Source: Deltaproteobacteria bacterium
Lineage (GTDB): Bacteria; Bdellovibrionota_C; UBA2361; JAGFJO01
Length of the DNA stretch: 64,000 nt
Reading direction: 5' to 3'
NCBI GenBank assembly: GCA_024102635.1
Contig: JAGFJO010000111.1
Location: 1-64,000 of the forward strand
Below the pieces are notes generated by a model. That model had not been told where the DNA came from, did no database searches, and worked only from the letters and a program-made list of their open reading frames with translations. Both the position numbers and the translations under genes were made by a program. Within the stretch, counting starts at the first letter, position 1. Each line of letters begins with the position of its first letter. Below are positions 12,830 to 19,197 of the stretch, piece after piece.

Positions 12830-14284
12830 TTAGAAAGGCTCAATCTCTATGTCGGAGATTAGCCCCGCATCTATCTGAAAATCTGATTGCTCCGAACTCT
12901 CCATGACCTGCTCCTCCAGCGTGTCGAACCTGGTAAATTCCGGAGAGAATGCAAGCCGCACTACTCCGGTAGGGCCCGTTCTTTGCTTGGCGATTATTAG
13001 CTCCGCGACACCTTTATCGATTGTCTCCGGATTATAAACTTCGTCACGATATATGAACATTATAATGTCGGCGTCCTGTTCAATGGCTCCCGACTCGCGC
13101 AGGTCGGACATTAAGGGACGCTTATCAGTGCGCGATTCAACAGAGCGGTTGAGCTGGGATAGTGCGATTACCGGCACGTTTAACTCCTTGGCGACAGCTT
13201 TCAGAGTGCGTGAGATGTCTGCAATCTCTTGTTCACGGCTATGACTGTACGCCGGGCTTCTCATAAGCTGCAAGTAGTCGACGATAATAAGGGAAAGGGG
13301 GTGCTCTCGATGCAAGCGGCGGCATTTTGCCCGCATCTCTGTTACTGCCAGTGACGGAGTATCGTCAATGAAGATCTTAGCTTCCGCAATGTGGCTTGCA
13401 GCGTCCACTAGCCGAGGGAAATCTCTTTCTGCAAGATGACCGGTTCTAACTTTGGAATTATTAACCCGCGCCTCAGAGCACAACATGCGCAGAACCAACT
13501 GCTCCTTGGACATTTCAAGCGAAAAAACGGCGACATTGTGCTTCTTGTGTATGCCTACCCACTGCGCCATGCTCAGAGCAAGGGCGGTTTTCCCCATTGC
13601 GGGCCTTGCGGCAATTATAATGAGATCTGAGGGCTGAAAACCGGCGGTCATGTGGTCGAGCTTGGCAAAGCCCGTGGGAGTGCCGGTTACCAGCTCCTTC
13701 TTATCGTAGAGCTGTTCTACCAGCCTAATCGAGTCCTGCACCAGATCCCCGACTTTATGAAATGATGAACGGATGCGGCGATCCGAAACGGCCAAAATGC
13801 GCTGCTCAGTGGCATCCAGAAAGTTTTCAACTCCCTCGTCCAGGCTGAATGCTTGGCCGATGATCTCGGAAGCTTCGTGAATCACTCTACGCCTCAGCCC
13901 CATCTCTTTTACGAGCTTAGCGTAGTAGGCGATATTCGCAGCGCTAGGAACTAGAGATGCAAGGCGCGCCAGATTTTCAATTCCGCCGGACTGTTCGAGC
14001 AGTCCCATCGAGCGCAACTGTTGACTTACACTGACAACGTCGATCGGTTCGCGGTGGTCACTGAGCGCCGTCATCGCGCTGAATATTGCCTTATTCGCCG
14101 CGCCATAAAAATCGGCGGCGCTTACAATCTCCAGGGCGTTGTTTATCGCTTCATTGTCGAGGAGAATCCCGCCCAGGACGGACTCTTCGGCCTCCCTAGA
14201 GTGGGGAGGGATTCTGGCGGATGCCAGGGCTCCGCCGCCGCTATTTTCGAAATGCTCGTTGTTAATGCGCCGTTTAGTCGACAT
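12830..14284 (-). CDS. dnaB: Replicative DNA helicase DnaB
   Basis: The 484-residue hexameric 5'-3' helicase of the replication fork. The N-terminal all-helical domain begins PPHSREAEESVLGG near residue 24. The RecA-like domain has Walker A ARPAMGKT near 225-232, Walker B LIIVDYLQLM, and the LSQLNRSVESR and RESGAIEQDADIIMFIYRDE motifs. There is no intein. The C-terminal tail is acidic and longer than the core needs. It is the third gene of a minus-strand run (YkuD lipoprotein, NYN, dnaB, DUF6899-like) with 14-15 nt gaps on both sides. The usual rplI-dnaB neighbourhood is absent. Confidence 0.97.
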   Translation of the reverse strand: MSTKRRINNEHFENSGGGALASARIPPHSREAEESVLGGILLDNEAINNALEIVSAADFYGAANKAIFSAMTALSDHREPIDVVSVSQQLRSMGLLEQSGGIENLARLASLVPSAANIAYYAKLVKEMGLRRRVIHEASEIIGQAFSLDEGVENFLDATEQRILAVSDRRIRSSFHKVGDLVQDSIRLVEQLYDKKELVTGTPTGFAKLDHMTAGFQPSDLIIIAARPAMGKTALALSMAQWVGIHKKHNVAVFSLEMSKEQLVLRMLCSEARVNNSKVRTGHLAERDFPRLVDAASHIAEAKIFIDDTPSLAVTEMRAKCRRLHREHPLSLIIVDYLQLMRSPAYSHSREQEIADISRTLKAVAKELNVPVIALSQLNRSVESRTDKRPLMSDLRESGAIEQDADIIMFIYRDEVYNPETIDKGVAELIIAKQRTGPTGVVRLAFSPEFTRFDTLEEQVMESSEQSDFQIDAGLISDIEIEPF

Positions 14285-14298
14285 TCACAGCACCGCCG

Positions 14299-15057
14299 TT
14301 AATCACGCCAAATAGTCTCAGAATCAGACAGATCTATCCATTTCGCAGCAGACTTCATCAGGTCGTGTGTTGCGAATTGCCCAAAATCGGCGGTGGTAGT
14401 ATCAATGCCGATCGTCTTTATAAGAGAGATTGCATAGGTGATCTCACGGCTGGGGCATACGATGGTAACCATGCGGTGCTCCGGCTCTCCAGCTCCCGAC
14501 GACAATGGCTTGACCACCACACTCTGTTTTTGAATGCTCTGTGTCTGGGCAGTTTTTGGATCTTCTTCCGGTTCTGTATGGGAGCCTCGAGGCAGCTGTC
14601 TGACGAGGGGATTTAGTCTTTGTATATGAGAACCGCGAGCCGGAGTAGTCGATGCCGGTTCCGCTGCACGGTATTCGCTCAATTCCGAGAACTGCTCCAC
14701 GCCCAAGGCGAATGCGGTTATATCAGCCGCCATCTCTACATCAATGCTCACCTGCCGGTTTACTCCTTTTGGCGGCAGACGTTTGACCACTACGGTCAGT
14801 CCCGCCCGGCTAACGGCATCGAGAAAGGCTCTCTGCCTCGAATCATCTTCATAAGGTATCAGTGTGTAGTAACGTGCCACGGTAGGAAACACTCCTGACA
14901 CCACTCCTCTAACCAACGCGCTCATGTCTACCTTGCGGTTGACTCGGCGGCTGGCTCGGTCCAATCCGGTACCATCTATGAAGAGACCGAGTTTTTTCTT
15001 CTCGCGGCGCCGAACGATGCCGCTGCCCAGCTCCTCGTACTTACTACCACTACCCAT
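14299..15057 (-). CDS. NYN-domain (PIN-like) protein, putative ribonuclease
   Basis: This 252-residue protein has a NYN/LabA-like fold: β-strand KLGLFIDGTGL near residue 22 supplies the first catalytic Asp, and a split second acidic patch is seen in SIDVEMAADITAFALG near 103-118. Between these, VARYYTLIPYEDD fits the usual strand order. A linker rich in Pro, Gln and Arg follows, and a second strand-containing piece (VTIVCPSREITYAISLIKTI) comes near the C-terminus. Family members act on RNA, with catalysis by clustered Asp residues and Mg2+. It ends 14 nt before dnaB, so co-transcription is likely. Confidence 0.75.
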   Translation of the reverse strand: MGSGSKYEELGSGIVRRREKKKLGLFIDGTGLDRASRRVNRKVDMSALVRGVVSGVFPTVARYYTLIPYEDDSRQRAFLDAVSRAGLTVVVKRLPPKGVNRQVSIDVEMAADITAFALGVEQFSELSEYRAAEPASTTPARGSHIQRLNPLVRQLPRGSHTEPEEDPKTAQTQSIQKQSVVVKPLSSGAGEPEHRMVTIVCPSREITYAISLIKTIGIDTTTADFGQFATHDLMKSAAKWIDLSDSETIWRD

Positions 15058-15150: not shown

Positions 15151-15768
15151 CTACTTAACCTCGATCACCGAACCGACTTGCAACTGATTGTAGATTTTAG
15201 CCATCTCAGGCTCCGGTATTCGGATTCCTCCGACCTCCTCAGACCAAACCGGGCCACAATGTATCGGTGTGTCTTTGTTGATGAAGATAGCGTATTCGCC
15301 AAGCGCCCCCCTGCGAAACCTTGCGCGATCACCCTGTGGGGGGACGGGAAGGCTTCGTTGCTCAAAATATCGGTCAGTCGCGTACCATAGGGGGCTTCGC
15401 TGCATGTGCAGCACTTGGTAACTTCCCGGACTCAAACCTTCTCCGCCTTCGAGCTTAGAGCTGGTTATGACGCGGCTTCCTTCCATTAAGGTGAGCTCGG
15501 AAGAGCTTAGGTTAATCGAAAGCCAGATACCGCTGGGGCTTCCAATTATTGGAATAAAGCCCAGCATGTTAAGGGAGCGGGGAGAGGAGACCTCGGGTAC
15601 CGGCCTAGACAACACTATTTGTCCGCTTGGGAGCCATTTTTTATCGGGTTCGGTAACAGCAGGATGCGAGCGACCGCACCCAGCCATGCCGAGCATAAGA
15701 ACAAGAAGAGCAGCACAGAGTCCGCGGCACAAGCCATCACAAGGCAATTTCATAAGTCCGATCTTCAT
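15151..15768 (-). CDS. Lipoprotein with degenerate YkuD (L,D-transpeptidase-like) domain
   Basis: The 205-residue protein has a signal peptide with lipobox LGMAGC (Cys about 31) and a C-terminal YkuD-like domain. The strand GIWLSINLSSSELTLMEG, the segment SPGSYQVLHMQ, IHCGP (His170) and IRIPEPEMAKIYNQL with GSVIEVK all line up with L,D-transpeptidases. The catalytic SHGCxR motif reads EEVGGIR, so both the His and the nucleophile Cys (Gly181) are lost. A Cys at 171 sits next to the first conserved His. It is therefore probably not an active transpeptidase and may bind peptidoglycan or serve as a scaffold. It heads the run leading to dnaB. Confidence 0.72.
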   Translation of the reverse strand: MKIGLMKLPCDGLCRGLCAALLVLMLGMAGCGRSHPAVTEPDKKWLPSGQIVLSRPVPEVSSPRSLNMLGFIPIIGSPSGIWLSINLSSSELTLMEGSRVITSSKLEGGEGLSPGSYQVLHMQRSPLWYATDRYFEQRSLPVPPQGDRARFRRGALGEYAIFINKDTPIHCGPVWSEEVGGIRIPEPEMAKIYNQLQVGSVIEVK

Positions 15769-16010
15769 AACCTTCTCCTATTTCTAGCAACACCAGCTGA
15801 AACAGAAAAACAAAATACAAAACAACCGGCTACTGCGGTGATCACTTCTTCAAGAGAATAACTGGGTTATGTCGTGATTGGCAACTGGTCATTTTTTAAC
15901 TTAATTACGGTGGCTTATATGGTTTAGGTTCAGCATCATGGCACAGCGTGCCGACATGAACTAATACGGTACAGAATGGGCAGTTTTAACTTTTGTAAAA
16001 ATGTTATAGG

Positions 16011-16949
16011 ATGGCCTCGATTTTTTGCGAGTTGACTGTGCAGGACCAGATAAACACCGACGATATGCCTACACAGGTAGCCTCCGGCAGTACCCTTCGC
16101 AGTGCAGTTTATGTAGCTTCAAACGGTGGTGTTGAAAGCAGGGGTGATTTCAGTGGGGGTCCCGCGAGGACGGTCGCACTTCTAACGATCTTCATTCTTT
16201 GTAGTCTCCCAGCTTGTACCCTCATACCCGCTGTGATTGTTCCATCCAGCGAGGATGACTCGTCTTTAGAATTCAAAGCGGGTGATGCGAAGCCTGTTGT
16301 AGAGAACGGTCTTGAAAGCGAACTTGCTGCCGACGAAGCCGGTGCGCGCTATTTCATTCCACTTAGGCAGGAGTCCACCCTGCCGAAACCGCACCGTAAG
16401 ATGACTGCGGAGGTTAGGAACGAGATTAACATTTATCTGAAGGGTAGCAGGCGCTTTATCCGCGAGTCACTTGAGCGCCGGGCTCAACATGAGGACTCCC
16501 TCGGCGGCATTCTGGAGTCAGAAGGAATTCCCAAGGACCTTTTAAATCTTGCGATAATTGAGAGCGGTTTTAGTAACGATGTGAAGAGTCCGGCCGGTGC
16601 AGCCGGAATTTGGCAGTTCATGAAGTCCACCGCCCGAATGTATGGATTGAAGATATCGCTTATTATGGACCAGCGGCGTCACGTCAAACTATCAACCTTG
16701 GCTGCTGCACGGCATCTTAAGGACCTTTACGCTAAATACAGCGACTGGGATCTGGCGCTTGCCGCCTACAATGCCGGCAGCGGGAAAGTAGACTCTGCCA
16801 TTCGCCGCTTCAAGCAAAGAGACTTTTGGAAGCTCGCGCGCAGTGGAGCTTTCAAAACTGAAACGGTACGGCACGTTGCTAAATTTTATGCTGTAACTCA
16901 CATAGCAGACAACGCAGCAGCTTACGGCATCTCTTATCGAGGAACCTAG
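16011..16949 (+). CDS. Lytic transglycosylase, SLT domain (MltD-type)
   Basis: A 312-residue envelope enzyme that cleaves peptidoglycan glycan strands to 1,6-anhydro products. A hydrophobic stretch TVALLTIFILCSLPAC near residues 54-69 ends in a lipobox-like SLPAC, so it may be a lipoprotein with an unusually long n-region. Another ATG at 16065 removes 18 residues, and no good SD decides. The SLT domain covers about 160-300: IIESGFSNDVKS with the catalytic Glu, GAAGIWQFM, and LALAAYNAGSGKV. No LysM repeats follow, unlike full-length MltD. ispF starts 40 nt downstream. Confidence 0.87.
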   Translation: MASIFCELTVQDQINTDDMPTQVASGSTLRSAVYVASNGGVESRGDFSGGPARTVALLTIFILCSLPACTLIPAVIVPSSEDDSSLEFKAGDAKPVVENGLESELAADEAGARYFIPLRQESTLPKPHRKMTAEVRNEINIYLKGSRRFIRESLERRAQHEDSLGGILESEGIPKDLLNLAIIESGFSNDVKSPAGAAGIWQFMKSTARMYGLKISLIMDQRRHVKLSTLAAARHLKDLYAKYSDWDLALAAYNAGSGKVDSAIRRFKQRDFWKLARSGAFKTETVRHVAKFYAVTHIADNAAAYGISYRGT

Positions 16950-16989: not shown

Positions 16990-17466
16990 GTGGAATTTAG
17001 GGTCGGTCATGGAATCGACATTCACCGGCTGGTCGAGGGGCGCAAATTAATTCTAGGCGGAATCGAAGTGCCGCATGAAAGGGGGCTGCTCGGGCATTCC
17101 GATGCGGATGTGCTGACGCATGCAATCATCGACGCAATACTTGGAGCTGCCGGGCAAGGTGACATCGGAACCTTCTTCCCTGATAGCGATGCAAAATGGA
17201 AGGATGCCGACAGCATGCAGTTACTGTCGCTTGCATACAGCCGGGTACGGGGTCTGGGCTGGCGAGTAGTAAATATCGATTGCAATATCTTAGCCGAGGC
17301 TCCAAAGCTATCACCTCATATCTCCTCTATGAAACAGCGCATCGCTTCGGCGTTAGATCTTCACTGTGAGGCTGTCGGCATCAAGGCCGGAACTGCCGAA
17401 GGTCTGGGGCCAATCGGCAGAAGCGAGGGCATGGCGGCCCACGCGACGGTACTGCTCGGACGTTAG
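16990..17466 (+). CDS. ispF: 2-C-methyl-D-erythritol 2,4-cyclodiphosphate synthase
   Basis: The 158-residue enzyme of the non-mevalonate isoprenoid pathway. Metal ligands sit in GIDIHRL (Asp and His near residues 9-11) and later HSDADVLTHAIIDAILGAA; GDIGTFFPDSD, NIDCNILAEAPKL and KAGTAEGLGPIGR are all family motifs. Start is GTG at 16990 with GGGAG about 8 nt upstream. IspD is not adjacent, although the two are often fused or neighbours. It feeds the polyprenyl synthase at 47299-48345. Confidence 0.96.
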   Translation: MEFRVGHGIDIHRLVEGRKLILGGIEVPHERGLLGHSDADVLTHAIIDAILGAAGQGDIGTFFPDSDAKWKDADSMQLLSLAYSRVRGLGWRVVNIDCNILAEAPKLSPHISSMKQRIASALDLHCEAVGIKAGTAEGLGPIGRSEGMAAHATVLLGR

Positions 17467-17652: not shown

Positions 17653-19197
17653 ATGTGTAGTTTGAAGCGCACTAGCGCTTTGTTCGCATTTCTATTCGCT
17701 GTTCTTTTTAGTCCTTATGTTCAGGCACAAAATGAAACGGTTCATGGCGCGGCGATCGTTCCAGCGCGCGGCGGAGGATGCTTTTTTACGGGGAGCAATG
17801 CGCCGCTTTCGAATCCGTTCGTCGAACCCTCAGTTTCAAATGCGATATACTGCTTAAGCCGTTTCGGCAATATTGTGACCTACCAGGGTGAGGGGGCTCC
17901 AAACAGTCCTGCAGTGGGACAGACCACATTCGCTCCATCTGCCAAGACGACATTTAGCGACACTCTGGATAATACATACTCGCAGATGGCGCTGAATAGT
18001 GAGTACCGCTACTGCGGAGGACAGAGCTGTTATCCCGGTGAGAAAGAGGATGGGTCGGGCCGGCGCGCTTTTCTTGCCCTCAATATCCCAAAAACTGTCA
18101 AGGCTATTAATGCCAAGGATGAACCAAATGAAAATCTAGCTTTTAGAATGGCCTCGACTTACATCGTAGACGGTAAAGGCATCGGGTATTCGATCGAAGG
18201 TGATCAGCAGCTGCTTGTTCTCGCCAAGGATGAAAAGCGCATTTTCGAAATTACTCCTGTTGCCCCCGATTTTAATGATCAAGCCGCCCTTCGAGATGCA
18301 AGTAGGAACCCTTACAGCATCCGCTGGGTTACTCCGGATCTTTCGAGTACTCCGCACAAAGAGATTCCCAGCGGAATCTTTTTCAAGTCCGAATTCTATG
18401 CCGGGCAGTGGCGCTACTATGTGCACGTAGACGGCTCGCAGCTTCCGGCCATTGGAAAGTATATAGTGAATTTTGTGCTTAGGAGGGAAACGCCGGTGGT
18501 GGTTTCCGTTAAGTACCGCAGCCCCGAGTACAATCAGCAGTACTGCCCCAAGGGAACTTGTGATTTTAATGCCAAGGTCTATACAACCGGAACATTCACC
18601 GTCGCATACGGTACTGAACAGTGCCTGAAGCGAGGGGGGATTGCTCTTCCGTCGTACGCGCCGCTAATGGCTGTATACACTAATACGCTAGGGGTTCTGA
18701 AAAAGAGCTTCAAGCTGGTCTTTGAGACACTGGATCGATTGCCGCAGAACAATAAATTCCGCGATAAAGCCCGCAGAACCCGCCGTCAGATTCAGCAGGC
18801 GCACACGTTCGTGAAGGGCGCCATCGACTTCGAGCAGTCCAACCTGAGGAGTTTGACGGAGTTGTACACCTCGGCTGAACTCGGGGCTCTTAGCGAGCAG
18901 CTGGTAGCTAAAGCTGTGGAAGCTATTGTCGAACCAAAGGGAGTAAAGAATCGGCGAAATACAAACTCATTACGCAGGCTGATCAAGAACTATACCCGGA
19001 CCGTCAAATACGCCAAGGCAAATGCGAAGGGCGGAAAGGCTGTGGCCCGCAAATATGCAAAACTTGAGAAGTCGCTAAAGAATGCCATAATCGCAGCTGA
19101 TAAGGCATTTAATGAGTACGCCACTCAGATGCAGGTAACTATGGAGAGAGACCGCGATATTCGCGAGAATTCTTTCCGCTGCACCGAAGTGTTCTAG
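17653..19197 (+). CDS. Secreted protein of unknown function with basic helical C-terminus
   Basis: I do not recognise this 514-residue protein. It begins with a Sec signal peptide (cleavage after VQAQ or nearby, about residue 25). The next 330 residues look like β-rich domains with scattered Cys pairs (CYP-, YCPKGTCD). The last 170 residues are strongly basic and helical (KARRTRRQIQQAHTF, RRLIKNYTRTVKYAKANAKG). The ATG has GGAGG 8 nt upstream. It sits alone between ispF and a convergent UPF0173 gene. A cell-surface or DNA-binding adhesin-like role is possible but not supported by any motif. Confidence 0.7.
   Translation: MCSLKRTSALFAFLFAVLFSPYVQAQNETVHGAAIVPARGGGCFFTGSNAPLSNPFVEPSVSNAIYCLSRFGNIVTYQGEGAPNSPAVGQTTFAPSAKTTFSDTLDNTYSQMALNSEYRYCGGQSCYPGEKEDGSGRRAFLALNIPKTVKAINAKDEPNENLAFRMASTYIVDGKGIGYSIEGDQQLLVLAKDEKRIFEITPVAPDFNDQAALRDASRNPYSIRWVTPDLSSTPHKEIPSGIFFKSEFYAGQWRYYVHVDGSQLPAIGKYIVNFVLRRETPVVVSVKYRSPEYNQQYCPKGTCDFNAKVYTTGTFTVAYGTEQCLKRGGIALPSYAPLMAVYTNTLGVLKKSFKLVFETLDRLPQNNKFRDKARRTRRQIQQAHTFVKGAIDFEQSNLRSLTELYTSAELGALSEQLVAKAVEAIVEPKGVKNRRNTNSLRRLIKNYTRTVKYAKANAKGGKAVARKYAKLEKSLKNAIIAADKAFNEYATQMQVTMERDRDIRENSFRCTEVF

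Follow-up and report, generated by a model that had tools for sequence, protein, structure and literature searches.

A conserved lipoprotein with the fold of an L,D-transpeptidase, predicted to be inactive and encoded beside a lytic transglycosylase

Introduction

Why would a bacterial lineage maintain a lipoprotein with the fold of an L,D-transpeptidase (LDT) in which the catalytic residues have been replaced? The question is raised by a 205-aa protein encoded at 15151..15768 (-) of the stretch of DNA analysed here, which is 64,000 nucleotides long and is referred to below as the window. The gene was defined by its open reading frame and its homologues, and its product reads TPIHCGPVWSEEVGGIRIPE where an LDT would read IHG...SHGCIR. 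The original prediction, made from the sequence alone, had described it as a YkuD-like lipoprotein without the catalytic Cys and the motif His, the rest of the fold being kept, and as a possible conserved pseudoenzyme in which a neighbouring Cys might act as replacement nucleophile.

LDTs of the YkuD family (PF03734; ErfK/YbiS type, LdtMt1/LdtMt2) and the protein described here, called pseudo-LDT, have in common the fold, the W..P..Y/F segment, the LG..AL strand, the active-site IH, the C-terminal helix and the final strand. Unlike these enzymes, the pseudo-LDT is without the catalytic Cys or the motif His, has a shortened loop, and carries a lipobox and an SGxIxISRPxP segment ahead of the domain. 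We provide here an analysis of its fold, active site, distribution and gene neighbourhood, and weigh the functions that these suggest.

Results

The lipoprotein and its predicted fold

The open reading frame includes a lipobox, MLGMAGC (MAGC at 15676..15687 (-), with Cys31 as the lipidation residue). A Cys is aligned at this position in 35/35 rows of the family alignment, although in one of them (L033) the aligned Cys precedes the protein's Met, so that no true lipobox is present. Judged by sequence, the protein is probably lipidated; its location in the outer membrane is assumed from the lipobox. An N-terminal motif, SGQIVLSRPVP (residues 48-58; 15595..15627 (-)), which occurs as three repeats in some relatives, precedes the YkuD-fold domain (residues ~80-205; 15154..15531 (-)). 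Plasmid records gave no match.

The 205-aa protein has no match in Pfam or NCBIfam; with PF03734 it scores 12.0 bits (E 0.65), short of the curated score of 23.4. This profile is nevertheless matched by 16/35 family members at E<=0.1, the best at 9.5e-7, and a profile-profile comparison with twelve canonical LDTs of its own group gave E 1.3e-7 and a probability of 94%. Together the profile comparison and the PF03734 matches point to common descent with LDTs. No LytM domain was matched by Pfam in the window's protein, which has a YkuD fold instead.

An AlphaFold model made with 13 sequences contains a confident domain (pLDDT ~92 for the YkuD-fold domain) that spans mature-chain residues 51-175, with block means of 89-95, and is preceded by about 46 residues of low confidence. 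The predicted fold matches that of LdtMt1 (5e51_D; Foldseek E 5.8e-7; VIA-align 2 Z 15.1, 2.5 A over 114 residues), of B. subtilis YkuD (Z 15.0) and, at Z 11.9-12.3, of Bd1075, Pgp2 and Csd6, in agreement with the initial view that the rest of the YkuD fold is kept. A search of PDB sequences with the profile of the family alignment returned nothing at E<=1; the relation to experimentally determined structures is therefore supported by the match in fold and by the profile-profile alignment with canonical LDTs.

A remodelled active site

The family alignment (A1) comprises 35 homologous sequences, the window's protein included. Left out were a sequence with a run of N at the motif (L035, G025); two divergent sequences with insertions, neither of which has a Cys motif when read (L036, G017; L037, G012); one at a contig end (L039, G028); a degenerate copy which has lost IH and GG and has no Cys motif (L040, G030); a copy split at contig ends whose C-terminal piece reads EIGG (L041 and L042, G004); and the canonical outgroups L043 and L045.

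In the profile-profile alignment, E178-V179-G180-G181-I182-R183 (15220..15237 (-)) pairs with T-H-G-C-I-R of these twelve canonical LDTs, so that in the SHGCIR register S corresponds to E178, H to V179, G to G180 and the catalytic C to G181. The position of the catalytic Cys is Gly181 in 35/35 aligned sequences, and the (S/T)HGC motif with its nucleophilic Cys is absent. Residue 178, the Ser/Thr position, is Glu or Asp in 34/35 rows; residue 179, the position of the motif His, is V, I, L or T and in no row His (0/35). Gly180 is not invariant because the G031 copy reads EVSG rather than EVGG. The absence of both catalytic Cys and motif His in the window's protein is thus a property of the family, and the Gly proved to be shared by relatives, none of the aligned sequences having an intact Cys, as a conserved pseudoenzyme would lead one to expect.

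Two features go beyond the original prediction. The active-site His that precedes the motif, His170 (His170-Cys171, 15256..15261 (-)), is kept in 33/35 rows and is Tyr in the other 2, so that of the two conserved His only that of SHGC has been lost. In addition, the spacing between His170 and residue 178 is exactly 7 residues in 35/35 rows, compared with 9-35 in the canonical sequences measured. Trp128, Ala130, Tyr134, Arg138, Pro143, Leu156 and Gly157 are invariant in the alignment.

The proposal that Cys171 is a replacement nucleophile did not survive. At position 171 Ser predominates (25 rows), followed by Cys (5), Thr and Asp (2 each) and Asn (1); the five Cys rows are scattered over separate parts of the tree, and 28/35 YkuD domains are without any Cys. 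When equated by motif, position 171 corresponds to Ser337 of LdtMt2 and His170 to His336; in LdtMt2 it is the backbone carbonyl of Ser337 and not its side chain that supports the catalytic His (PMC11410929).

Distribution, descent and selection

Homologues were sought by a protein search of the genomes of 143 relatives and by a profile search of the 45 genomes of the phylum-level group. They were found in 42/45 genomes of the group, 40 of which have the YkuD part; in G039 and G042 only the N-terminal lipoprotein segment matches in the profile search. Phylogenetic analysis of 37 members together with 35 LDTs recovered the pseudo-LDT family as one clade (support 100/99, 200/200 bootstrap trees).

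A profile search of 382 genomes, with a threshold of E<=0.001, gave matches in 21 that do not belong to the group. The matches read (twenty stretches from 19 genomes, plus L045 of G085 and L043 of G142) all retain the catalytic Cys; the motif expression flagged 2/22 rows as without SHGC, and these read TEGC and TNGC, with the Cys kept, L169 reading SDGC. Loss of the Cys is therefore, as far as searched, a trait of this lineage.

Across 55 pairs within one genus pN is 0.125-0.41 and pS 0.62-0.85, synonymous sites being near saturation, which is why the contrast between the two was used and not a dN/dS ratio. The family is under purifying selection, with strong constraint on the protein. The universal Gly, the acidic residue 178, the motif His that is never His and the fixed 7-residue loop indicate an ancient family trait and not a recent mutation.

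Gene neighbourhood

The steadiest neighbour of the pseudo-LDT gene is a divergent gene for an SLT lytic transglycosylase, also a putative lipoprotein (16011..16949 (+); PF01464, E 2.2e-25), and the two have in common the intergenic region 15769..16010. Downstream and co-directional lie the gene for an NYN-domain protein (14299..15057 (-); PF01936, E 1e-6) and then dnaB, the replicative helicase (12830..14284 (-); PF03796/PF00772); ispF (YgbB; 16990..17466 (+); PF02542, E 3.9e-65) adjoins the transglycosylase. The NYN-domain gene, 14 bases from dnaB, is a conserved feature of many loci in the group. Further along the window, 17653-19197 (+) encodes a predicted secreted protein of 514 aa, for which no Pfam match was found at E<=0.001.

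Neighbourhoods were compared at 37 loci, one per genome, from ORFs of at least 90 aa, the longest being kept on overlap. The set drops L037, a duplicate of L094, and excludes L033 (the second copy in G023), G025, G028 and G004. The transglycosylase is immediately upstream and divergent in 34/37 loci and within two ORFs in 35/37, and the outer neighbours of the pair vary between loci. The NYN-domain gene is immediately downstream in 24/37 and within four ORFs in 28/37. In the window's transglycosylase PF01464 alone passes the Pfam cut-off, with no LysM found; the Glu-Ser (ES) motif is present in 35/35 copies and, by a simple rule, a lipobox-like site in 34/35, the single miss being LNGC.

This adjacency despite varying outer neighbours, the SLT-only copy in the window, the lipoprotein-like character of the transglycosylase family and its universal Glu-Ser motif all argue for a partnership, as does G030, where no orthologous transglycosylase was found and neither IH nor GG is left in the lipoprotein. 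With ispF and dnaB on either side of the pair, some of this conserved synteny may reflect inheritance and not function. Nor is the pairing obligate: G037, G039 and G042 keep the transglycosylase and are without the YkuD part, and G031, like G030, has only more distant paralogues, with no orthologous transglycosylase beside its lipoprotein. We considered, and dropped, a rule linking every loss of the transglycosylase to decay of the lipoprotein. The G031 lipoprotein keeps IH and a single G and scores 156.3 bits, whereas those of G017 (124.5 bits) and G012 (86.2 bits) score lower with the transglycosylase kept; decay and partner loss thus do not coincide cleanly.

Other L,D-transpeptidases in the carrier genomes

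PF03734 is matched in 17/45 genomes of the group, and besides the pseudo-LDT family another YkuD protein is present in 16/40 carrier genomes, one canonical LDT in the case of the window's own genome. The remaining 24/40 have none at E<=0.001, a count of detectable YkuD proteins below whose threshold divergent LDTs could fall. YkuD_2 (PF13645) occurs in two genomes, both of which already have another YkuD protein, and adds none to the 24. The other YkuD matches of the group that were read, two G004 matches without a locus being excluded, carry (S/T)xGC, except L118 and L128, which the motif expression left undecided.

Discussion

The protein is very probably a pseudoenzyme, a lipid-anchored LDT homologue whose loss of catalysis is predicted from alignments and models. 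Kept by nearly all of an uncultured bacterial group beside a wall-cutting enzyme, such an apparently inactive version probably binds or regulates the wall instead of building it. Clade-wide, the catalytic Cys-His motif is replaced by [ED]-[IV]-G-G, the loop ahead of it is shortened and the altered site is maintained by purifying selection. The cleft has been kept and conserved, unlike the chemistry, which is predicted to be lost. In the mechanism that we propose, the pseudo-LDT would be anchored in the outer membrane by its lipid, and through the former donor-peptide cleft, with His170, acidic 178 and the invariant residues Trp128, Tyr134 and Arg138, it would bind stem peptides and/or a partner. 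Once bound, it would position or control the lytic transglycosylase encoded head to head with it, in the manner of DipM. Sensing or binding of peptidoglycan would be a plausible role. The weaker part is the transglycosylase link, for which we infer a partner role from the gene neighbourhood, and the chances of the whole reading, that the pseudo-LDT binds peptidoglycan and/or controls the adjacent transglycosylase, seem to us evenly balanced.

A simpler role, less probable in our estimate yet to be taken seriously, would be that of a structural tether: the domain would only bind peptidoglycan non-covalently, fastening the outer membrane and regulating no enzyme. Pal and OmpA domains fasten the outer membrane in this way. 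The lipobox found in nearly all rows, the stem-peptide binding of the LDT cleft in enzymes and the presence of the pseudo-LDT where no LDT is detected would all fit, as would the second YkuD domain of LdtPae1, which its authors speculate to bind peptidoglycan (PMC10434034); the tether leaves unexplained the head-to-head lytic transglycosylase of 35/37 loci. It is improbable that the site has been re-tooled, with Ser or Cys171 running a different chemistry together with His170 or acidic 178. Position 171 is indeed Ser or Cys in 30/35 rows, residue 178 is acidic in 34/35, and Legionella Lpg1514, a protein of the YafK type, shows that the YkuD scaffold can use a Ser (Ser132) for serine-dependent turnover of beta-lactams, an activity reported not to need the Cys (PMC13400389). 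Position 171 is, however, Thr, Asp or Asn in 5/35 rows and His170 is Tyr in 2; moreover, the residue comes immediately after the His and matches, by motif, LdtMt2 Ser337, which acts through its backbone (PMC11410929). Lpg1514 also differs in keeping its Cys174 while using Ser132, the corresponding Cys having gone from the pseudo-LDT.

A regulator or decoy of canonical LDTs would find a target in the window's own genome, which has one; we consider this quite unlikely since the 24/40 carriers with no other YkuD match at E<=0.001, to which PF13645 brings no change, imply that an active LDT is not a required partner. That the gene is a decaying relic or the product of a sequencing error could be suggested by the score of the window's protein below the Pfam cut-off, and is contradicted family-wide by the Gly, loop length and clade conserved over 35 rows and by pN well below pS; we give it almost no credence.

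For the preferred reading, binding of the wall and/or control of the transglycosylase, DipM offers the nearest functional analogy: its LytM domain, which is inactive, binds the lytic transglycosylases SdpA and SdpB, and DipM stimulates SdpA (PMC10336132). In both systems the domain of a wall enzyme has lost its catalytic residues and has been conserved; they differ in fold (LytM in DipM, YkuD here) and in that the function here is deduced from gene neighbourhood alone. In structural terms, the nearest precedent is found in P. aeruginosa LdtPae1, whose second YkuD domain (QLGKIR) has no catalytic Cys (PMC10434034). Cys-less YkuD domains are therefore not without precedent; that of LdtPae1 is in tandem with, and fused to, an active one, whereas here the domain forms a free-standing lipoprotein kept group-wide, of which no other example was found in the literature searched, which covered few subscription journals.

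Regulation of wall-degrading enzymes by inactive LytM homologues is known, and the pseudo-LDT is kept even in members of the group without a detectable LDT. Should it control the adjacent transglycosylase, a wall-cutting enzyme would be held in check in a new way, and the protein offers a direct test of the role of the LDT cleft without its chemistry. More tentatively, and with some doubt, one might envisage a group-wide "degenerate LDT" system in which an outer-membrane pseudo-LDT, in place of enzymatic LDTs, reads the wall peptides and gates a lytic transglycosylase, itself a lipoprotein, that is dedicated to it. Such a system could conceivably, if the analogy holds, correspond to the degenerate LytM regulators, but built on the LDT fold.

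Variants of the lipoprotein

Several variants were observed among the relatives. The second copy in G023 (L033:4371-4943, G023:C73) apparently has an ordinary signal peptide in place of the lipobox. Small lipoproteins in G042 (L099:240-668) and G039 (L100:6864-7145) contain repeated SGSIxLSxxVP...GYLP segments and no YkuD domain; the segments resemble the N-terminus of the pseudo-LDT proteins, and they occur in the one family of genomes in which the YkuD part is missing at its usual locus. In the members from G033 and G036, three segments of this kind precede the YkuD domain.
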